From contig LCKE01000014.1 of NCBI GenBank assembly GCA_001001205.1, forward strand, positions 1-32,660: DNA of 32,660 bases, in the 5' to 3' direction. The notes beneath the pieces are model-generated. The model saw only the letters and a list, made by a program, of their open reading frames with translations, was not told the DNA's origin and searched no databases. The stretch is from Parcubacteria group bacterium GW2011_GWF2_45_11. Lineage in GTDB: Bacteria; Patescibacteriota; Patescibacteriia; UBA1558; UBA10009. Every line of letters starts with the position of its first letter. Position 1 is the stretch's first letter. Of the stretch, positions 2,745 to 25,734 are shown piece after piece. The position numbers and the translations under genes are program-made.

Positions 2745-4583
<1,839 letters not shown>

Positions 4584-12943: not shown

Positions 12944-13759
12944 ATGAAAACATCTTGTTGGCTGAACCCATTAAAAATAATTGCTGTAATGGTTTTTTTA
13001 TGGACCTTATTACCAATCACTGCTTATGGATTAACAGACAATACGGCTAAATCATGCCTGAACCTTAGAGACGAAACACTAAAAAACAAATGCTTGTTCA
13101 AATTTGCCAAGGTCTCTCAAAATGTTAATTATTGTCTCCAGGCTGGCGACAGCGCGTGTATAGACTACTTAGCGCGAATAACTAAAAACCCCGATTTATG
13201 CCAATATAAAGAAAGCTTATCGGCAAGCCGGACCGCCGTTCAATCATGCAGACAACACGTTTCTTTTGATTACTTTAAAAATCCAACAAAAACTTGGCTG
13301 AGCATCATTATTCTGCCCATAATCATTTTACTAATAGGTATCTATATTCTGCTAAAAAATTATTCAAAAAGTGTTAAAATAAGATATTTAATCATTGCCT
13401 CGCTCTATCTGTTTTATTATATTACGTGGATTCTCCAGATTCTTTATCACCAAAACAAATGGGGAACGGAATATATGAGCGTCAGCTTCTTCTTATTTAC
13501 CACCACCTTAGCGCTATGGCTGGAAGAGTTAAAAGATATCAATATTATTAACCAATACGGCTTTAACTTAATCTATTCTGCATTAGAATTTTTTATGCTG
13601 GCTTTTTTTGTAATATTATTGCCAAAATTATTAAAATCAAAATACAAAATTTTAAAATCGGTAATCATAACTCTGGCCGTACTGGATATTATGTCCAATG
13701 TATATTTATTACTCAATGTATACGGGGGTATTAATTTTGCTGCTTTCTTACTGCCATGA
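12944..13759 (+). CDS. Membrane protein of unknown function with a Cys-rich N-terminal ectodomain
   Basis: Signal-like N-terminus, CLNLRDETLKNKCLFKFA...CLQAGDSACIDYLA...CQYKES...SCRQHV, then several TM segments. Confidence 0.6.
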   Translation: MKTSCWLNPLKIIAVMVFLWTLLPITAYGLTDNTAKSCLNLRDETLKNKCLFKFAKVSQNVNYCLQAGDSACIDYLARITKNPDLCQYKESLSASRTAVQSCRQHVSFDYFKNPTKTWLSIIILPIIILLIGIYILLKNYSKSVKIRYLIIASLYLFYYITWILQILYHQNKWGTEYMSVSFFLFTTTLALWLEELKDINIINQYGFNLIYSALEFFMLAFFVILLPKLLKSKYKILKSVIITLAVLDIMSNVYLLLNVYGGINFAAFLLP

Positions 13760-16528
13760 TGCTCAAACAAAAAAAATTCATCATCATTGACGGTAATGCC
13801 CTCTTGCACCGGGCCTACCACGCTTTGCCGCCCATGACCTTAAAAGACGGCACGCTGGTCAATGCCGTTTATGGCTTTACTTCAATCCTCTTAAAAATCA
13901 TCAAAGAACTTAAGCCGGACTATCTTTGCGCGGCTTTTGACCGCCAAGGCAAAACTTTAAGAGCCGAAGCATTCGCCGGCTACAAGGCCCAAAGAGTTAA
14001 ACAGCCGGACGAGCTCTATCAGCAAATCCCCATTATTGAAAAAATTCTGGACGCCTTTAACATCCCGGTGATTGACGCCCAAACAACCGGGTACGAAGCC
14101 GACGACGTCATCGGCACAGTCGTCGTTGCCCTAAAAAATAAAGGGATCAAATCCATTATTGTTACCGGCGATTTGGACGCCCTGCAATTAGTGGACGACC
14201 AAACTGAAGTATTTACTTTAAAAAAAGGCATCAACGAAACCGTCACTTACGGCCCGGAAACAGTCCAGGAACGCTATGGGTTAAAACCAAAACAGCTGAT
14301 TGACTACAAAGCCCTGCGCGGCGATCCCTCGGATAACATTCCGGGCGTAAAAGGCATCGGCGAAAAAACCGCCGCCCAATTAATTCAAACTTTCGGCACC
14401 TTAGACCGGCTTTATCGGGCGATTGAAAAAAATGATCCGAAACTTTCTAAATTTTCCGCACGCATCATCAGTCTTATCACGGAGGGCCGGACGGCGGCGG
14501 ACTTGAGCCAAAAGCTGGTCACCATCAAAACCGATCTGCCGACTAATTTTAAATTAGACGACACCGTCGTCGCCGGTTTTAACGCGGAAAAAATCGTTAA
14601 ACTCTTCAGCCACTTGGAATTTAAAAGCCTGCTCAATAAAATCCCGGTGGAACTGAACGGCCGTCCCGGCGCCGCCGCGACCGAAGTCCGCCAAAGCCAA
14701 ATGGAATTCGGCCCGCGCCGCCCGGCGCCGGACGATAACGCCGCTTACGTTAAAATTGAAACCAAACCTAAAGACCAAAGTCTTAATTACCAGTTAATTG
14801 ATGACGAAGAGGCCTTTGAGCGTTTCTTCACTGAACTTAAAAAACAAAAGCTTTTCGCGGTTGACAGCGAAACAACCTCTTTGGATGTCTGGCGGGCCGA
14901 ACTCTTGGGCCTAAGCTTTGCCTGGCGGGCCGATGAAGCTTACTACCTCAATATCTCCGGCCATAAACAATGGCTTAAAGCGTTACAGCCGCTGCTGGAA
15001 AATCCCCATCTAAAAAAAATCGGCCACCACCTGAAATACGACCTAGAGATCCTCTTAAACCACGGCGTAGAACTTAAAGGCATTGCCTTTGATACCTTAT
15101 TGGCCGCCTATCTGCTGACATCTTCCAACCGCAACTTAAGCCTGGATAGCCTAGTCTTTGGCGAACTGGGCCATCAAATGCAGCCGATTGAAGATTTGAT
15201 CGGACAAAAAGGCAAAGGCCAGTTAAGCCTGGGTCAGGTACAGCTACAAGACCTGGCTTGGTATTCTGCCGAAGATGCTGATTTTTCGCTTAAGTTAGCC
15301 AACAAATTACAAGACCAGCTTAAAAAAATTGCCGATTTGGGGTTACTGCAAAAAATTGAACTGCCCTTGATTCCAGTGCTGGCCACAATGGAACAAAGCG
15401 GCATCAAAATTGACAAGGCTTTCTTAAAAAAACTGGATCGCCGGCTGACGCAACGCCTAAAAACCATTGAACAAAAAGTCTATAAACTGGCCAAAAAAAA
15501 ATTCAACCTGGCTTCCCCCCGGCAACTTAAGGAAATCTTGTTTGACCAATTACATATATCCTCTCAGGGCTTAAAAAAAATCAAAACCGGCATCTCCACG
15601 GCGGCCGGCGAACTGGAAAAAATGATGGATCGGCATCCGATTATCGGTTTGATCAGCGAATTCAGGGAATACAGCAAACTGCAAAATACCTACACCCGGT
15701 CTTTGCCCAAACTGTTTCAATCAAACAATTACCGCCACCGGCCGCCTGTCTTCTTCGGAGCCAAATTTGCAAAATATCCCGATTCGCACCGCCTTGGGCC
15801 GCGAAATCCGCAAAGCCTTTATCCCTAAAAGCGGCTATAAGCTGATTGCCGCCGACTATTCCCAGATTGAACTTAGAGTCATCGCCTCATTGGCTCAGGA
15901 CGAAAAAATGATCAGGTATTTTCAAAAAGGCGAGGACATTCATAGCCGCACGGCCGCCAACGTCAACAAAATCAAAATTGATCAGGTAACTAAGGAGCAA
16001 AGGCGGGCCGCCAAAGAAGTTAATTTTGGCGTTATTTACGGCCTCGGCTCAACCGGTCTGGCCCAAAGAACGGGCTTAAGCAAAGCCGAAGCCAAAGAAT
16101 TCATCGCCAAATATTTTGCCCTGCATCCCCAGATTAAAAACTGGCTGGAAGCGACTAAAAAATTGGCCGTACAACAAGGTTACGTTGAAACCCTTTTAGG
16201 CAGAAGAAGATATTTGCCCGATATCCATTCGGGCGTGCCGATGATCAGGGCGGCGGCCGAGCGCATGGCGGTCAACGCGCCGATTCAGGGCACGGCGGCC
16301 GATCTATTAAAAATGGCCATGATTAAAATCCACGAGGGGTTGCCTAAAATTTCGCCGCGAACCAAAATGCTTTTAACCGTCCACGATGAATTAGTCTTTG
16401 AAGCGCCAAATCAGGAAGTCAGCCGCCTATCCGCATTCATTAAAAAAACCATGGAAAATATTTACCCGCTCAGGGTTCCGGTGATAGTTGAAGTTAAGGC
16501 CGGCAAAAACTGGGGAGAGTGTAAATAA
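13756..16528 (+). pseudogene. polA: DNA polymerase I, reading frame disrupted near 15733-15737 (frameshift plus about 10 missing codons)
   Basis: ORF1 (13756-15828) carries the 5' nuclease and exonuclease-like domains through ...KLFQSNNYR. The other frame resumes at ATGRLSSSEPNLQNIPIRT...AADYSQIELR...QGTAADLLKMAM...VHDELVFE. The conserved segment between YR and ATGRL is absent. Confidence 0.88.
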
Positions 16529-16554
16529 TTCAATAAACAATGTGGGAGAAAATA

Positions 16555-16640
16555 CAAATTTACAATTTTAAAATAAATCCGGCATTAAGGGCTTGACCGA
16601 GGCGGCGCTGAATGAATTTCAAAAATCAAATTTAAACATT
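16555..16640 (+). repeat. Diverged intergenic repeat, copy A
   Basis: attttaaaataaatccggca-ttaaggg...gaatgaatttcaaaaatcaaattt; aligns with copy B. Confidence 0.7.
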
Positions 16641-16664
16641 AACTTAAAATTAAAAATTCTACCT

Positions 16665-17126
16665 ATGTTCTTAACCCCTCACGCCGCCACCGGAATCTAT
16701 ATCGGCAGTCAAATCCCTAATGCTTGGCTGGCTTTTTTATTTGGCTTTATCTCCCATTTACTGCTTGACTTTATTCCCCACGGCGACGAGAGTCTGGGGG
16801 AAAGGTGGAACGGTAAAATCAAGGTATACCACCTGGCGCTGATTTCCGGCCTGGACATGATCGTGGTCGGCCTGCTGACGTATTATTTAATCGCCAACCG
16901 GATTGTGCCTTTAACGCCGGCAGTTTTGGCCGGTCTGGCCGGATCAATCTTGCCCGATTACATCTGGGGTCTGCACGAGATCACCAAAGACAAGGTGACC
17001 GGCTGGATTTCCAGCAATATCCTGAGCGCCTGCCATCACCTTTTACCCGTCAGGCTGCCCTTAAAAGTAGGGGTGATTATCCAGCTGACAACCCTGCTGA
17101 TTTTCATGAGGCTTTTGACAATTTGA
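16665..17126 (+). CDS. Membrane protein, putative membrane-bound metal-dependent hydrolase-like
   Basis: MFLTPHAATGIYIGSQIPNAWLAFLFGFISHLLLDFIPHGDE: H..., SHLLLDFIPH pattern. Start re-called from 16593 because the longer ORF reads into an intergenic repeat. Confidence 0.55.
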   Translation: MFLTPHAATGIYIGSQIPNAWLAFLFGFISHLLLDFIPHGDESLGERWNGKIKVYHLALISGLDMIVVGLLTYYLIANRIVPLTPAVLAGLAGSILPDYIWGLHEITKDKVTGWISSNILSACHHLLPVRLPLKVGVIIQLTTLLIFMRLLTI

Positions 17127-17162
17127 ACCCTTTTAGCTAAACTAGCCAGGTTGATACGTTAT

Positions 17163-18107
17163 ATGATTATTTTCCTTTACGGAACGGACAACTACCGCTC
17201 CGGCCAAAAACTTGAGGAAATAAAAAAAAAGTTCCAAGCCCAAAATGACCCCGCCGGCCTTAATATTGTGACGTTCGCCGGCGAAGAATTTAACTTGGAA
17301 AAATTTAACAACGCCGCCGCTCAAAGCGGTTTTTTGGTAAAAAAAAGGCTGATTATAACAAAAAACCTGCTCGGTCAAAAACCGGCTAAAGAAAAAACAG
17401 AGGCCTTAATGGACCTCCTGGAAAATTTTAAAAAATCAGACAATGTCCTGGTATTTTGGGAAGCGACTATGCCGGATAAAAGATCGGCTCTGTTTAAAAG
17501 GTTGAGCCGGGAAAAATTAAGCCAGGAATTTCCGCGGCTGAAATCGGCTCAGCTGACGGCCTGGGTTAAAAAATACGTGGCGGATAATAACGGCCGGATT
17601 AACAACGAAGCCGTTAATTTATTAATCGCCTTTGTCGGTGATGATCTTTGGCAAATCAGCAATGAACTGGACAAATTATTGGCCTACAGCCCAAAGTCTA
17701 TTGCCCCGGAAGACGTCAGGGCGATGGTTAAGGCCAAGCTGGACGAAAATATTTTTGGCCTGGTTGACGCGATCGGCGCCAACAACAAGCCGGCCGCCCT
17801 TAAACTCTTAAACGAACAATTGGCCCTGGGCTTAAACGAGATCTACATCCTCACCATGATTGGCAGGCAATTCCGCATCTTAGCCCAGCTGAAGTCGCTC
17901 GCCTCCCATAACTTTAGCCAGGCCGAAATCATCAAGCGGACCAAACTGTATCCTTTTGTGGTAAAAAAATTGCTGCCTCTCAGCCAAAAATTCACCCTGG
18001 CCAAACTCCAGCAAATTTACGAAAAAATGGCGGAGCTGGATTTAAAATTAAAATCGACTTCTTTGTCCGGTCAAACCCTGCTTGATCTTTTTATTTTGCA
18101 AATTTAA
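17163..18107 (+). CDS. holA: DNA polymerase III subunit delta
   Basis: MIIFLYGTDNYRSGQKLEEIKKKF...; architecture like HolA; neighbours rpsT. Confidence 0.85.
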   Translation: MIIFLYGTDNYRSGQKLEEIKKKFQAQNDPAGLNIVTFAGEEFNLEKFNNAAAQSGFLVKKRLIITKNLLGQKPAKEKTEALMDLLENFKKSDNVLVFWEATMPDKRSALFKRLSREKLSQEFPRLKSAQLTAWVKKYVADNNGRINNEAVNLLIAFVGDDLWQISNELDKLLAYSPKSIAPEDVRAMVKAKLDENIFGLVDAIGANNKPAALKLLNEQLALGLNEIYILTMIGRQFRILAQLKSLASHNFSQAEIIKRTKLYPFVVKKLLPLSQKFTLAKLQQIYEKMAELDLKLKSTSLSGQTLLDLFILQI

Positions 18108-18150
18108 AAAGCACGGACGCCTAATGGACCCCGTGATTTTTAAATAAGAT

Positions 18151-18420
18151 TTATTTTAGACCAGCCTTTTTAACCTTGGCGGCTAATCTGGATTTGTGCC
18201 GGTTGGCGGTATTCTGTTTTAAAACGTTAACCTTAACCGCTTTATCCACCGCTTTTTGCACCTGAGGCAACAGGGTTTTGACTTTGTCCATTTCTCCGGC
18301 CAGCAGAGCTTTATTGGTTTTTTTGATCAGATCTTTAATTAGGTTTTTGCGCCGGCTATTTCTTAAAGCATGGGCGCGTGACTGACGCAATGATTTTTTG
18401 GAAGATTTTGTTGTAGGCAT
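18151..18420 (-). CDS. rpsT: 30S ribosomal protein S20
   Basis: MPTTKSSKKSLRQSRAHALRNSRRKNLIKDLIKK...NTANRHKSRLAAKVKK. Confidence 0.95.
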   Translation of the reverse strand: MPTTKSSKKSLRQSRAHALRNSRRKNLIKDLIKKTNKALLAGEMDKVKTLLPQVQKAVDKAVKVNVLKQNTANRHKSRLAAKVKKAGLK

Positions 18421-18623
18421 ATACCTTAATTTTCAATTTTGAATTCTAAATTTTTAATTATATAATACAGGTGCGGGAGATAAAAAGATACTATCATAGT
18501 TAAAAGATTAAATCAAGCTTACATATCAGCTTACATATCAAACATATCGAACGTGTTGACGAAACGCCCTAAATAAGCTAAGACCGTAACAAGGCGTTAA
18601 TTTATCCTTAAATACATATAAAA

Positions 18624-19547
18624 ATGAACCGCATTATCATTACGGATCTGCCTAAGCCCCACGATGAAGTTAAGGGCTGCTGGTATAACGGCTATCCTAT
18701 CCATAAAGGCTACACCGAAAACAGCCTTAACTACGCCACGGTCTATTCGCACCAAAACCACATTTTACCTGATCTGAAAAGGATTAAAAATGATTTTAAA
18801 AATTTTAAAAAGGCTCTGCAGGCGGCCGGCTTTGAGGTTTACACCCTGCCCTTTCCGGAGGAATTAAATCAGGTTGATAACCTGCATCATGACGCTGTCT
18901 TTGTCAGGGATTCCGGCTTAATCTTTAAGGATTGCTGGATTAAAGCCAGGTTCAGCGCCACTAACCGGCAGATGGAATCGGAAATCTACGCCCCCATCAT
19001 CGCCAAAACTTTCAACAAACGGGTAGTGGAATTGCCCGGAGACGCTTATTTGGAATTAGGCGAGGTTTTTTATCTACAAACCAAACAGGGCACTTTTTAT
19101 TTCGGCGGCCTTTCGCGCTCCAATAAAATCGGCCATGATTTTGCCCAATCGGTTATCCAGGCCGATCACTATTGTCTGCTCCGCTCCCAGGGCTACCACT
19201 TAGACACCGTCTTCAGCCCGGTCTTGAGCCAGGCTAACGAAATCATCGCCTTTATTGTCAGAGAAGATCTTTTTTCGCGGGAATGCCTAGAGGCTTTAAA
19301 AAGGTTCAACATAGAAATCATCCGCATAGACCCGATTGATTCTTCCGGCGTGGAAGGCAATTTGGGCAATTACGCCGTCAACGCTTTGGTCGGGCCGGGC
19401 GTTTTGCTCAATGCCGCCGAATTTTTAACGCCGGGGGTGGAAGCAAAATTAAAATCGCTCAACATTAAACGTTACGTTACTCCCTTAAACGATTTCCGCA
19501 ACGCCGGCGGCTCATGCCATTGTTTGACTAATGAAATTTACGAATAA
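18624..19547 (+). CDS. Amidinotransferase/dimethylargininase-like (pentein superfamily) protein
   Basis: DAVFVRDSGLIF, GDAYLELGEVF, C-terminal NAGGSCHCLTNEI with the expected catalytic Cys. Confidence 0.85.
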   Translation: MNRIIITDLPKPHDEVKGCWYNGYPIHKGYTENSLNYATVYSHQNHILPDLKRIKNDFKNFKKALQAAGFEVYTLPFPEELNQVDNLHHDAVFVRDSGLIFKDCWIKARFSATNRQMESEIYAPIIAKTFNKRVVELPGDAYLELGEVFYLQTKQGTFYFGGLSRSNKIGHDFAQSVIQADHYCLLRSQGYHLDTVFSPVLSQANEIIAFIVREDLFSRECLEALKRFNIEIIRIDPIDSSGVEGNLGNYAVNALVGPGVLLNAAEFLTPGVEAKLKSLNIKRYVTPLNDFRNAGGSCHCLTNEIYE

Positions 19548-19622
19548 ACCCGGCACCTGGGCCCCGGACCATGTGGTTCTATTAAAAAATTTTAAAAGGC
19601 GCCGGAACAAACCGATAAGCTT

Positions 19623-21194: not shown

Positions 21195-21223
21195 TTGACA
21201 AAATAAACATTTCGGGCTATAAT
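21195..21223 (+). promoter_or_regulatory. Perfect consensus promoter TTGACA-17-TATAAT
   Basis: TTGACA 21195-21200, 17-nt spacer, TATAAT 21218-21223. Confidence 0.9.
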
Positions 21224-21227
21224 TGAA

Positions 21228-21241
21228 TGTTTACGTAAACA
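21228..21241. promoter_or_regulatory. 14-bp perfect palindrome TGTTTACGTAAACA at the predicted transcription start
   Basis: Direct reading; located 5-18 nt after the -10 box. Confidence 0.75.
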
Positions 21242-21268
21242 ATAACTCAAAACTCAAGGAGATTTCCC

Positions 21269-21862
21269 GTGAGACGACTCCGACTCATGGTTGTCGCGCT
21301 CGTGCTGATGATAAGCACGGCGCTGGCTGACCAGTACCAGCCGCCCCACCAGGCGGTGGTGGACTCGTTAGGTAACCATCTGGTTACCTATGAGTGGGTC
21401 AAATTTTCTTTCGATGACCAGTTCCACCACCCCAACGGTGATCTGTACCCCAAAAAATGGGGTGAGACAGTCTGGGTCTTGGCCCAGCCGCGCCAGGCCA
21501 ACCGCTTCCGCGGCTGGATGACCATCGGCGGTTTTGCCGCCGGTGCGGTTGATGGCTATAACCAGGGATATCTCCAGCACGGCTGGAGAACCTGGGACGA
21601 AGTGGAGCGGTTCGCCTGGATAGCCGGCGCCCCGATGTTTTGGGGCTTGGCGCTGGATAGTCAGTATCCAGACGCCTGCCGCTGGACCGGCGGACTCCAG
21701 GGCGGGTTGGCCGCTGTTTCCATTATCCGACATTCGGATAATGACGACGGCCAGACAATCGCTTTGGCAGCCGGAGCCGCGGCCGGCTCTTATATTGTGG
21801 GCTGGCTGTTGGATAAGTACCGCCACCGGCCGGCCAAGGGCTACCGGTACTATCTCAGGTAG
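21269..21862 (+). CDS. Small exported protein of unknown function; CDS tiled with perfect inverted repeats
   Basis: GTG start after aaggag (21256-), signal peptide MRRLRLMVVALVLMISTALA, own promoter and terminator. Confidence 0.8.
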   Translation: MRRLRLMVVALVLMISTALADQYQPPHQAVVDSLGNHLVTYEWVKFSFDDQFHHPNGDLYPKKWGETVWVLAQPRQANRFRGWMTIGGFAAGAVDGYNQGYLQHGWRTWDEVERFAWIAGAPMFWGLALDSQYPDACRWTGGLQGGLAAVSIIRHSDNDDGQTIALAAGAAAGSYIVGWLLDKYRHRPAKGYRYYLR

Positions 21863-21871
21863 CCTTCATCT

Positions 21872-21909
21872 CCCCCGTCAAGGCTTAGGCTTTGACGGGG
21901 GCGTTTTTT
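21872..21909 (+). terminator. Intrinsic terminator CCCCCGTCAA...TTGACGGGGG-cgtttttt
   Basis: 10-bp stem plus T-tract. Confidence 0.93.
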
Positions 21910-22024
21910 ATCTGCCAATTTTTACGAAATATCCGCCCGGCTCGCCATTATGGCAGACGGGTACAATACCCGTTATACAAAATAACCGGTAACGTCTCAG
22001 CTATTAAGCCTCAATCTGTAATCT

Positions 22025-24148
22025 TCATTTTTTAATTTTGAATTTTGGATTTTGCATTTTTAATCTTTTAATCTGATCCCTGAGCCCAGCCGCTTCTTCA
22101 AACGCCAGATTCTCCGCCGCCAGCTGCATCTGATTTTCCAAATCGGCAATAAGCCGGCTTAATTCGTCCTGAGGAATTTGCCGATAGTCTTTTAGTCTTT
22201 TAGTCTTTAAATCCTTATCTTCCATATTGGATCGCAAATCATCCCTGATGTCTTTTTTTATGGATCGCGGCGTAATGCCATGCCGCCGATTATATTCCGC
22301 CTGAATCACCCGTCTTCTGTCCACCTCCGCCATCGCCCGCTTCATGGAACCGGTAATTTTGTCGGCGTACATAATCACTTTGCCGTCCTGATGGCGGGCC
22401 GCCCGGCCCATGGTCTGGATTAAAGATGTTTCTGATCTTAAAAAGCCTTCCTTATCGGCATCCAAAATCACCACCAGGGAGACTTCCGGCAAATCCAAGC
22501 CTTCCCGCAACAAATTAATGCCGATCAAGACGTCAAATTTGCCTAACCTTAAATCTCTTAAAATATCCAGACGATCCAAAGTCTCTATTTCCGAATGAAG
22601 ATACTGAACCTTGAGCTTAAGGTCCTGAAGATAGTCAGTCAGTTCTTCCGCCAGGCGCTTTGTCATGGTGGTCACCAGCACCCGGTTTTTTTGTTTTATG
22701 GTTTGTTTGATTTCTTTAATTAAATCGTCAAGCTGGCCCCGGCTTTTCCGGACCTCCACCTCGGGATCCAACAAACCGGTCGGCCGGATCACCTGCTGGC
22801 TGACCGCCGAATTTGCCTCGTTAATCTTCAGGGTTAAATCATTAAAATCCACCAGCTCCTTGGCCAGCGCCCCGACCCTGACTTTTTTGGTCGCAATCCC
22901 GGACAAACGATACTCGTAAGCGGCTGGCGTGGCCGAAACATAAACAGCCTGATTAATGCGGCTGTTAAATTCCTTAAAATTCAAAGGCCGGTTATCAAAG
23001 GCCGAAGGCAGCCGAAAGCCGTACTCAATTAAAGTTTGCTTGCGGGAATGGTCGCCGGCGTACATGCCGCCGATCTGCGGCAAAGTCATGTGCGATTCGT
23101 CCACAAACATCAGAAAATCCTTGGGGAAATAATCAATCAAGGTGGACGGCGGCTCACCGGCTTGCCGGCCGGTTAAAAACCTGGAATAATTTTCAATCCC
23201 GTTGCAATAACCGGTCGCCACCATCATCTCTAAATCAAAATTAGTGCGCTGTTCAAGCCTCTGCGCTTCCAGCAACTGCCCCTGCTTTTTAAAATAGGCG
23301 ATTCTCTCGGCCAGCTCCCCCTTAACGGCTTTTAGCGACTCCTTAAATCTGGTTGCCGGAGCGACAAAATGCTTGACCGGAAAAATTCCCACGGTTTGCC
23401 TGTTGACATTTGAGCTTGAGTTATTTTTTGTTTTTTGCATCCCGGCAATTTGTTTACCGGTCAGCCAGTTGATCCGCGAAATCCTCTCAATTATATCGCC
23501 GTAAAACTCCACTCTAACCACTTCGTCAGCCGACTCCACCGGAAAAATTTCCACGATATCGCCTTTGACGGTAAAAGTCCCGCGGCCTAGAGCCGCGTCA
23601 TTGCGGGTAAACTGAATGGCGGTCAGTTTTTTTAACACTTCGTCAATTTTAATTTTTTGCCCGACTGTCAGCTGAACGTGCATGGCCTGATAATCGGCGG
23701 GACTGCCTAAGCCGTAAATGCAGGAAACCGAAGCGACAATGATGACGTCTCTCCTGGTTAACAAAGAATTGGTGGAAGCGTGCCGCAGGCGGTCAATTTC
23801 TTCGTTAATTTGCGTTTCCTTTTCTATGTAGGTGTCCGACCGGGGAATGTAAGCTTCCGGCTGGTAGTAATCGTAATAGCTGACAAAATAGTGGACCGCG
23901 TTTTCCGGAAAAAATTCCTTGAATTCGCTGGCCAGCTGGGCGGCCAAAGTTTTATTGTGGGAAATAATCAAAGTCGGCTTTTGCGCGGCGGCCATGACGT
24001 TGGCCATAGTGAAAGTTTTACCCGAGCCGGTCACGCCCAAAAGCGTCTGGTGCTTTTTACCAGCGTTCAATCCCCTGACCAGCTTATCAATCGCCTGAGG
24101 CTGGTCGCCTGTAGGCTTAAAATTAGATTGTAAGTTAAAATTTGGCAT
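22025..24148 (-). CDS. uvrB: Excinuclease ABC subunit B
   Basis: FKPTGDQPQAI...LLGVTGSGKTFTMANV...YYDYYQPEAYIP...GINLLREGLDLPEVSLV..., C-terminal UVR motif. Confidence 0.97.
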   Translation of the reverse strand: MPNFNLQSNFKPTGDQPQAIDKLVRGLNAGKKHQTLLGVTGSGKTFTMANVMAAAQKPTLIISHNKTLAAQLASEFKEFFPENAVHYFVSYYDYYQPEAYIPRSDTYIEKETQINEEIDRLRHASTNSLLTRRDVIIVASVSCIYGLGSPADYQAMHVQLTVGQKIKIDEVLKKLTAIQFTRNDAALGRGTFTVKGDIVEIFPVESADEVVRVEFYGDIIERISRINWLTGKQIAGMQKTKNNSSSNVNRQTVGIFPVKHFVAPATRFKESLKAVKGELAERIAYFKKQGQLLEAQRLEQRTNFDLEMMVATGYCNGIENYSRFLTGRQAGEPPSTLIDYFPKDFLMFVDESHMTLPQIGGMYAGDHSRKQTLIEYGFRLPSAFDNRPLNFKEFNSRINQAVYVSATPAAYEYRLSGIATKKVRVGALAKELVDFNDLTLKINEANSAVSQQVIRPTGLLDPEVEVRKSRGQLDDLIKEIKQTIKQKNRVLVTTMTKRLAEELTDYLQDLKLKVQYLHSEIETLDRLDILRDLRLGKFDVLIGINLLREGLDLPEVSLVVILDADKEGFLRSETSLIQTMGRAARHQDGKVIMYADKITGSMKRAMAEVDRRRVIQAEYNRRHGITPRSIKKDIRDDLRSNMEDKDLKTKRLKDYRQIPQDELSRLIADLENQMQLAAENLAFEEAAGLRDQIKRLKMQNPKFKIKK

Positions 24149-24314: not shown

Positions 24315-24405
24315 ATCCAGCACCTTGCAGGAGTTCTTTTTACGGGGCCTAATACCCAGCACCAGAGATTGGTACTGGGAATACCCTTTAGAAAAAGTGT
24401 TGGAT
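24315..24405 (+). repeat. Structured intergenic element, copy 1 (GGGGCCTAATA-[hairpin]-GAATACCC within an outer ATCCAGCAC/GTGTTGGAT stem)
   Basis: Outer stem 24315-24323/24397-24405; inner CCCAGcACC...GGTaCTGGG; shares gcag-ag-ttcttt, ctaatacccagcac, gaataccct, aaagtg..ggatttat with copy 2. Confidence 0.8.
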
Positions 24406-24410
24406 TTATT

Positions 24411-24450
24411 GAAAAAAAATAGCCCCCGAAATTTCCGAAGAAATCGGGGG
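24411..24450 (-). terminator. Intrinsic terminator for the 24462-24935 minus-strand gene
   Basis: Minus strand: CCCCCGATTTCTTCGGAAATTTCGGGGG followed by ctattttttttc. Confidence 0.9.
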
Positions 24451-24461
24451 CAAAAAATCGT

Positions 24462-24935
24462 TTAATGGCCGAGCCAGCGCGTGCCAGCTTTAGGAATAAA
24501 CACTGTTACGCGCCTTTTTGCCTCGACTCTAATGGTCGAGGCACTGCTTCCACCCGGGCGCCACCGATATTGGGCCGTAAAATACTTAGCCAGACCCAAC
24601 TCGAATATTTCGCCCTTCTTCTCGTAGGTGACCCTGGTACCGGGCTGCCAAAACTCTGTTACCCGGGTGGCCAAACCACCGTCCACCGTAACGGTTACCG
24701 ATTCCACCCCTTGCCAATTTTTAAAGGCAAGGAAAAGAGTTTCCTCGACTTCTTTTGAGATAGTCGATTCAAAAATGAAAGTCTCCCCTTTCTCTAAGGA
24801 GACCGAATCCGGCCAATTATCCCAAGTCTCGGAGACTGAATGGTTTTTAATTACATAGGACTTGCCAATCAACTCGGCAAATCCGGCACCGACACTGACT
24901 TCAAGCGTCAATAAAACCAATAATAGGTGTTTCAT
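24462..24935 (-). CDS. Small exported protein of unknown function; CDS rich in perfect inverted repeats
   Basis: Start re-called at MKHLLLVLLTLEVSVGAGFA (24935) because it follows AAGGAG by 6-7 nt and begins a signal peptide; own promoter and terminator. Confidence 0.75.
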   Translation of the reverse strand: MKHLLLVLLTLEVSVGAGFAELIGKSYVIKNHSVSETWDNWPDSVSLEKGETFIFESTISKEVEETLFLAFKNWQGVESVTVTVDGGLATRVTEFWQPGTRVTYEKKGEIFELGLAKYFTAQYRWRPGGSSASTIRVEAKRRVTVFIPKAGTRWLGH

Positions 24936-25003
24936 GCTGCTCTCCTTTTGTTTTGCGACTTTGGTTTTTGAAACGGAACTACCTGAAATGAACAAGATAA
25001 AAA

Positions 25004-25032
25004 ATCTTAGCACATATCTTAATAGTTGTCAA
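25004..25032 (-). promoter_or_regulatory. Promoter TTGACA-17-TAAGAT for the 24462-24935 gene
   Basis: Minus-strand TTGACA (25027-25032), 17-nt spacer, TAAGAT (25004-25009). Confidence 0.85.
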
Positions 25033-25152: not shown

Positions 25153-25734
25153 ATGATCGCCTATTTAATCGGCAAAGTTTTAATCAAAAAAACCAAATAC
25201 CTCATTCTGCTGACCAATAACACCGGCTATCAGGTATTTGTTAATGAAAAAACCCTGACGGCTTTAACCGAAAATCAGGAAGCGGCTTTGCATATCCATC
25301 ACCACGTTAAGGAAGACGCCGAAGAATTGTACGGCTTTTTGAATTTACCCGAACTGGAACTGTTTAAAAATCTGATTGCCATTTCCGGCGTGGGCCCCAA
25401 AAGCGCCCTGGGTGTGATGGCGCATTCCAGCGTGGAAGACATTATCGGCGCTATTTTATCGGAAGACCCGGCGCTCCTTAGAACCGTATCCGGCATCGGC
25501 CCTAAAACCGCCGAACGTATCGTGGTGGAACTTAAATCCAAAATCGGCTCGCTCTATAAAGATTCCAAAGACAGCTGGATTCAGGCCGCGCCCAAAGACG
25601 TGGAAGTTATTGAAGCCCTCTTAGGCTTGGGTTATTCCCGCAAAGAAGTCATGGATGTTGTCAGACAAATACCTGATAAACTGACGGAAACTTCGGACAA
25701 GATTAAAGGCGCCTTGAAATTACTGGCTAAATAA
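25153..25734 (+). CDS. ruvA: Holliday junction DNA helicase subunit RuvA
   Basis: MIAYLIGKV...AELYGFLNLPELELFKNLIAISGVGPKSALGVM...LLRTVSGIGPKTAERIVVELKSKI...ALLGLGYSRKEV. Confidence 0.95.
   Translation: MIAYLIGKVLIKKTKYLILLTNNTGYQVFVNEKTLTALTENQEAALHIHHHVKEDAEELYGFLNLPELELFKNLIAISGVGPKSALGVMAHSSVEDIIGAILSEDPALLRTVSGIGPKTAERIVVELKSKIGSLYKDSKDSWIQAAPKDVEVIEALLGLGYSRKEVMDVVRQIPDKLTETSDKIKGALKLLAK

Follow-up and report, generated by a model that had tools for sequence, protein, structure and literature searches.

The stretch of DNA analysed in this study (32,660 nucleotides, hereafter the window) corresponds to contig 14 in a 1.14-Mb genome (69 contigs, 93% complete) whose size and gene content suggest a member of the Patescibacteria. 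Between uvrB (22025-24148, minus strand) and ruvA (plus strand, starting at 25153), in a neighbourhood of truB and other housekeeping genes, it carries a single-gene unit on the minus strand (24411-25032) whose coding sequence is filled with hairpins. This locus raises the question of whether its structure exceeds what the encoded protein and its codons impose, whether it is one of a class of such loci, and what a message of this shape might be for.

The strong promoter, the AAGGAG motif and the GC-rich terminator noted in the sequence-only reading of this DNA were all found on the minus strand, at 25032-25004, 24947-24942 and 24451-24412, respectively. The promoter, identified in the sequence and also recovered in the promoter-first scan described below, is near the sigma-70 consensus, with the boxes TTGACA (25032-25027) and TAAGAT (25009-25004) separated by 17 nt and the latter directly preceded by TGC (extended −10). 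The same promoter style was observed upstream of the gene at position 21269 of the window and of genes in L007, L041, L011 and L014. The leader of about 62 nt (24936-24997) is not structured above its shuffled versions (minimum free energy −6.6 vs a mean of −8.9), and the Shine-Dalgarno (SD) sequence (24942-24947) is placed 6 nt upstream of the ATG; SD matches of at least 6 nt precede just 28 of the 656 CDSs in our genome sample. Bases surrounding the SD are unpaired with a probability of 0.66, those of the CDS with one of 0.37, a contrast that is less marked in some other members of the class. The CDS (24462-24935; ATG at 24935, TAA stop at 24464-24462) encodes 157 aa, with a signal-peptide-like N-terminus (MKHLLLVLLTLEVSVGAGFA) followed by a predicted beta-rich domain. 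The unit ends with an intrinsic terminator (24412-24451), recognized in the sequence and also folded, which is composed of a GC-rich 8-bp stem (GCCCCCGA...TCGGGGGC, 24451-24422) and a T-run after it; the target thus combines an SD match to AAGGAGGT of at least 5-6 nt with an adjacent terminator.

Immediately past this terminator we identified a dispersed intergenic repeat (24335-24420; consensus about AATAAATCCAGCACCTTTTCTAGAGGGTATTC...GGTGCTGGGTATTAGG), of which at least eight partial copies are present in the genome (in L039, L011, L033, L016, L017, L010, L005 and L004). Elsewhere in the window, the 16S rRNA gene (2745-4583) contains a Group I intron (3292-3583; Rfam RF00028, 53.5 bits), and polA (13756-16528) is broken into a pair of frames that overlap (13756-15828 and 15767-16528), which indicates a frameshift or an assembly error.

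The 11 stems originally listed for the CDS are all exact, in coordinates and in the perfect pairing of their arms, and the listed stems of 4-5 bp carry little weight individually; some of the 11 are absent from the predicted minimum-energy fold. A more general test, suggested in the sequence-only reading, was the comparison of local folding energy (pairs within 100 nt) with that of shuffled sequences in which the protein and codon usage are held fixed. The CDS remained an outlier, with an energy below that of all 400 shuffles (z −3.97), and none of 400 shuffles reached the observed value when the dinucleotides at codon junctions were also kept (z −3.01). Perfect stems of at least 6 bp with loops of 3-20 nt numbered 11 vs 3.1 expected (z 3.6). 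Dinucleotide shuffling of the whole transcript, which takes in the terminator on both strands, gave z −3.7 for the sense strand and −3.85 for the opposite one (0/100 in each case). Among sampled ORFs, for which the genome mean fold z is about −0.7, the target ranks third of 561 by fold z (a noisy ranking based on 24 shuffles) and 23rd of 605 by perfect-stem z, while comparable tests of neighbouring genes yielded −0.5 for ruvA, +0.6 for FBA and −2.8 for uvrB.

The target is therefore a genuine yet moderate fold outlier, and a far stronger one is present in the same window. This companion unit (21195-21910, plus strand) has the same design, namely a promoter, AAGGAG, a hairpin-tiled CDS starting at 21269 and encoding a 197-aa secreted protein, and a terminator (CCCCCGTC...GACGGGGG); the folding energy of its CDS was below that of every one of 400 codon-preserving shuffles (z −7.4).

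The proposal that such loci form a class rather than a one-off was supported when 684 kb of the 1136 kb genome (about 60%, taken as stretches) was searched for promoters, strong SDs and fold outliers. Three partly independent scans, in which the thresholds for SD, promoter and terminator were chosen by us and start sites and signal peptides were assigned by rule or by eye, agreed in revealing further loci by layout and fold: (i) a hairpin-first scan, in which the top ORFs by perfect-stem excess were L041:14745 (z 9.9), L007:2783 (8.3), L041:16777 (8.0) and 21269 (7.3), (ii) a layout-first scan, in which genes were picked without regard to folding within the CDS, and those combining an SD of 5 nt or more with a neighbouring terminator had a mean fold z of −3.39 (n=12) vs −0.62 for weak-SD genes (n=120; Mann-Whitney p=1.3e-4), genes with a strong SD and no terminator (mean −1.02) being indistinguishable from the rest, and (iii) a promoter-first scan, in which TTGACW-N16-18-TAnnnT sites numbered 75 vs 26 in the reversed sequence, 43 of them lying upstream of an ORF; the six ORFs of this set with the lowest fold z (L007:2786, −7.8; 21269, −5.5; L041:14378, −5.1; L011:15112, −4.3; L014:8681, −4.1; the target, −4.0) all had SDs no shorter than 5 nt. 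The target is one of about ten to a dozen similarly built single-gene units in this genome, and a member of middle strength, much exceeded by 21269, L041:14757 and L007:2786.

A typical member is a single gene with a GC content above that of the genome, no close relatives, and a signal peptide or membrane segment at its start. The signal peptide noted earlier is plausible for the target, whose N-terminus was judged by eye, and is frequent without being general in the class, since L007:2786 and L041:14378 are soluble-looking. Other departures from the typical member are a NUDIX protein and a P-loop kinase (L041:18437-19581) and an HsmA-like membrane protein (L039:366); a DUF2279-like domain also occurs in the class. 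In L041, hairpin-dense genes form a cluster (14378-19581), beside which are the remnant of a transposase and an array of GCGCATTGCC repeats (15350-15470). Two mutually unrelated CDSs of L041, starting at 14757 and 17616, have a common 62-nt leader (94% identity), and no leader motif common to all members of the class was found, a shared leader being confined to these two genes. Several candidates were set aside: the signals at L005:14101 and L016:1501, prominent in an initial scan of local folding, come from inverted repeats and terminators between genes; L035:9595 and L027:14143 are well folded without the SD layout; and L011:17477 (DsbB) and L039:9927 have many perfect stems with a small energy excess. 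Among the strongest local-fold signals of the sample was an intergenic region (L005:14030-14370) in which long inverted repeats with perfect arms form an array. Searches of open-licence papers retrieved general work on coding-sequence structure and no description of such a class.

Comparison with related genomes showed that the uvrB-ruvA gap, 1004 nt long in this genome, spans about 310-320 nt and contains no ORF in two members of the same family, G001 and G003. The target protein had no family in Pfam, PHROGs or NCBIfam, no match better than E 0.5 among PDB sequences, and no relatives in viral contigs, plasmids, the genome_contigs collection or 53 related genomes. Three matches among 381 genomes of the class (E 4e-4 to 9e-3) lay within far larger proteins and were near chance for that number of genomes. 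Since it is absent from the conserved junction in both G001 and G003 and no relatives were found elsewhere, the target represents a lineage-specific single-gene unit.

Two other members have syntenic orthologs. The ortholog of L041:14757 in G001, which belongs to another genus, is syntenic (beside uppS), has 43% protein identity and retains TTGACA, AAGGAGG and a terminator; its fold z is −4.67 (0/100), that of the adjoining uppS being −0.37. The 21269 gene has an ortholog in G003 (35-37% identity), likewise located in the truB-uvrB interval, which is weakly structured (z −1.34). These two ortholog pairs, the only ones available in a class composed mostly of singletons, suggest that the format can outlast sequence divergence, though not always. 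Similar units were detected in sampled stretches of the relative G017 (L058:7953, L059:6502 and L059:8022) and a possible one in those of G001 (L044:7005), while no clear similar unit was seen in the sampled stretches of G002, G036, G040 and G048. The G017 region L059:6390-7340, which contains a multi-pass membrane-protein gene of 51% GC in a genome of 36% GC, presents the target's format in another family of the order, with a TTGACA promoter, AAAGGAAGG and a long terminator (CCCCCGCCCGATTCTG...CAGAATCGGGCGGGGG).

From the computed layout, the excess of structure over what protein and codon usage impose, the restriction of this excess to the CDS and its sense-strand signature, we infer, with a probability of roughly 0.4, that the hairpin-tiled CDS shields the strongly transcribed message of a single gene against RNase Y and similar endonucleases. 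By leaving few single-stranded sites along the message, the hairpins would make it resistant to RNase Y-type enzymes and long-lived; the strong promoter and SD would maintain ribosome loading despite slower elongation, and few transcripts would suffice to supply the exported protein steadily. Protection combined with loading at a strong SD is favoured by the open SD and leader, by the presence of RNase Y in the genome, which also encodes RNase III, and by the finding that more structured coding sequences accompany more abundant mRNAs in E. coli (PMC4619774). Some considerations count against it: RNase III could cut the long stems, the weak structure of the G003 ortholog shows that the folding is not strictly conserved, and the low translation efficiency that accompanies ORF-wide structure in E. 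coli (rho −0.76; PMC5318159) fits throttling equally well. The main rival is accordingly that hairpins pace translation, slowing ribosomes so that nascent signal peptides or membrane segments reach Sec, or capping the exported output despite the strong promoter. The same E. coli anticorrelation and the signal peptide or transmembrane start of most members speak for pacing, which we nevertheless regard as rather unlikely, since the hairpins run through the whole CDS and do not cluster downstream of the signal peptide, two members are soluble-looking, and an output cap is ill-suited to an optimised promoter and SD. It is also unlikely, in our estimation, that the class consists of single genes acquired from phages or other bacteria that use consensus promoters, strong SDs and structured CDSs, the structure serving the donor. 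The empty uvrB-ruvA junction in two relatives, the target's GC content (above the genome average) and mildly atypical codons, and the position of the L041 cluster by a transposase remnant with its two genes sharing a leader would all suit such an origin; the searches of viral contigs, plasmids and bacterial genomes, however, provided no relative of the target, and the syntenic orthologs in other genera of the family indicate that two members, at least, are resident and not recent.

Two further explanations were weighed. Template switching could perfect imperfect inverted repeats in fast-evolving, tolerant genes, and it is consistent with this that most members are orphans whose proteins are presumably weakly constrained, and that perfect stems are enriched 7.5x vs 1.8x for wobble stems. 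However, the excess of hairpins is limited to the CDSs of the class, in which stems of 6 bp or more number 144 vs 27.8 expected (5.2x the dinucleotide expectation), whereas such stems reach 1.8x in the promoter-leader segment of 110 nt and 1.3-2.0x in the flanks beyond. A process acting on DNA palindromes should moreover treat G-U and A-C pairs alike, A-C being G-U on the opposite strand, while folding of the message should not. The stems counted were 7 bp long and had a single non-Watson-Crick pair at an internal position. Independent stems of the class with G-U numbered 34 vs 18.6 ± 3.8 under codon shuffling and those with A-C 15 vs 13.9 ± 3.4, in a set where sense-strand energy contributed to the choice of a few members and could slightly favour G-U. 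A set picked mainly by Watson-Crick stems, and so less exposed to this bias, gave 50 vs 27.8 for G-U and 22 vs 23.0 for A-C (overlapping counts), and the target alone 9 (2.3 expected) and 0 (0.9 expected), respectively, again as overlapping counts. The enrichment of G-U and not of A-C suggests that selection acts on the shape of the mRNA itself, and we consider neutral palindrome formation improbable. Least probable by far is that the unit specifies a structured non-coding RNA and that its reading frame is fortuitous, an interpretation that could draw on the strong promoter, strong fold and terminator of the target. The in-frame coding score, 0.21 per codon, is near the level of ordinary genes, the remaining two sense frames score −0.11 and −0.16, and this clear signal identifies the product as a protein; the canonical SD-ATG spacing leads directly into a hydrophobic signal sequence, no Rfam match was obtained at 24411-25032, and other members encode recognizable domains. 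The target protein is small and probably exported or secreted, as judged from its sequence, and its mature part is predicted with low confidence to be beta-rich (AF2 single-sequence model: all-beta, pLDDT 57). Foldseek matches of this model were generic beta-sandwiches (best E 0.02) and were set aside.

Phage morons are insertions of one gene at a junction of conserved genes, each carrying a promoter and a terminator of its own. The target resembles them as an autonomous, lineage-specific one-gene unit of differing base composition at a conserved junction, but it is chromosomal, with no prophage around it, no PHROGs match and no relative in viral contigs, and a hairpin-dense CDS is not part of the moron concept. 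Persistent RNA viruses display genome-scale ordered RNA structure, and as in these viruses, many stems fold the coding RNA of our units far past the codon-preserving expectation; here, in contrast, the folded molecules are bacterial chromosomal mRNAs of single genes with local hairpins. The closest parallel in E. coli is ORF-wide mRNA structure (Burkhardt et al. 2017, PMC5318159; Del Campo et al. 2015, PMC4619774), where the whole CDS is structured as a property of the ORF. Unlike the E. coli phenomenon, which is graded over all genes, the structure described here is extreme in a small, mostly orphan set with a common style of promoter, SD and terminator.

In bacteria, the structure of coding sequences is known to affect mRNA abundance and translation in a graded way; an extreme set tied to one promoter, SD and terminator format and to exported orphans would make the role of ORF-wide structure testable by recoding. 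Tentatively, some Patescibacteria may keep dispersed, lineage-specific genes for exported proteins in a single expression format (a consensus promoter, a strong SD and a CDS selected for hairpins from end to end), in which the message would be protected or metered by its own shape, and the format, not the proteins, would be conserved. Such a class would offer a sequence-only route to candidate host-interaction proteins in these mostly unculturable organisms.
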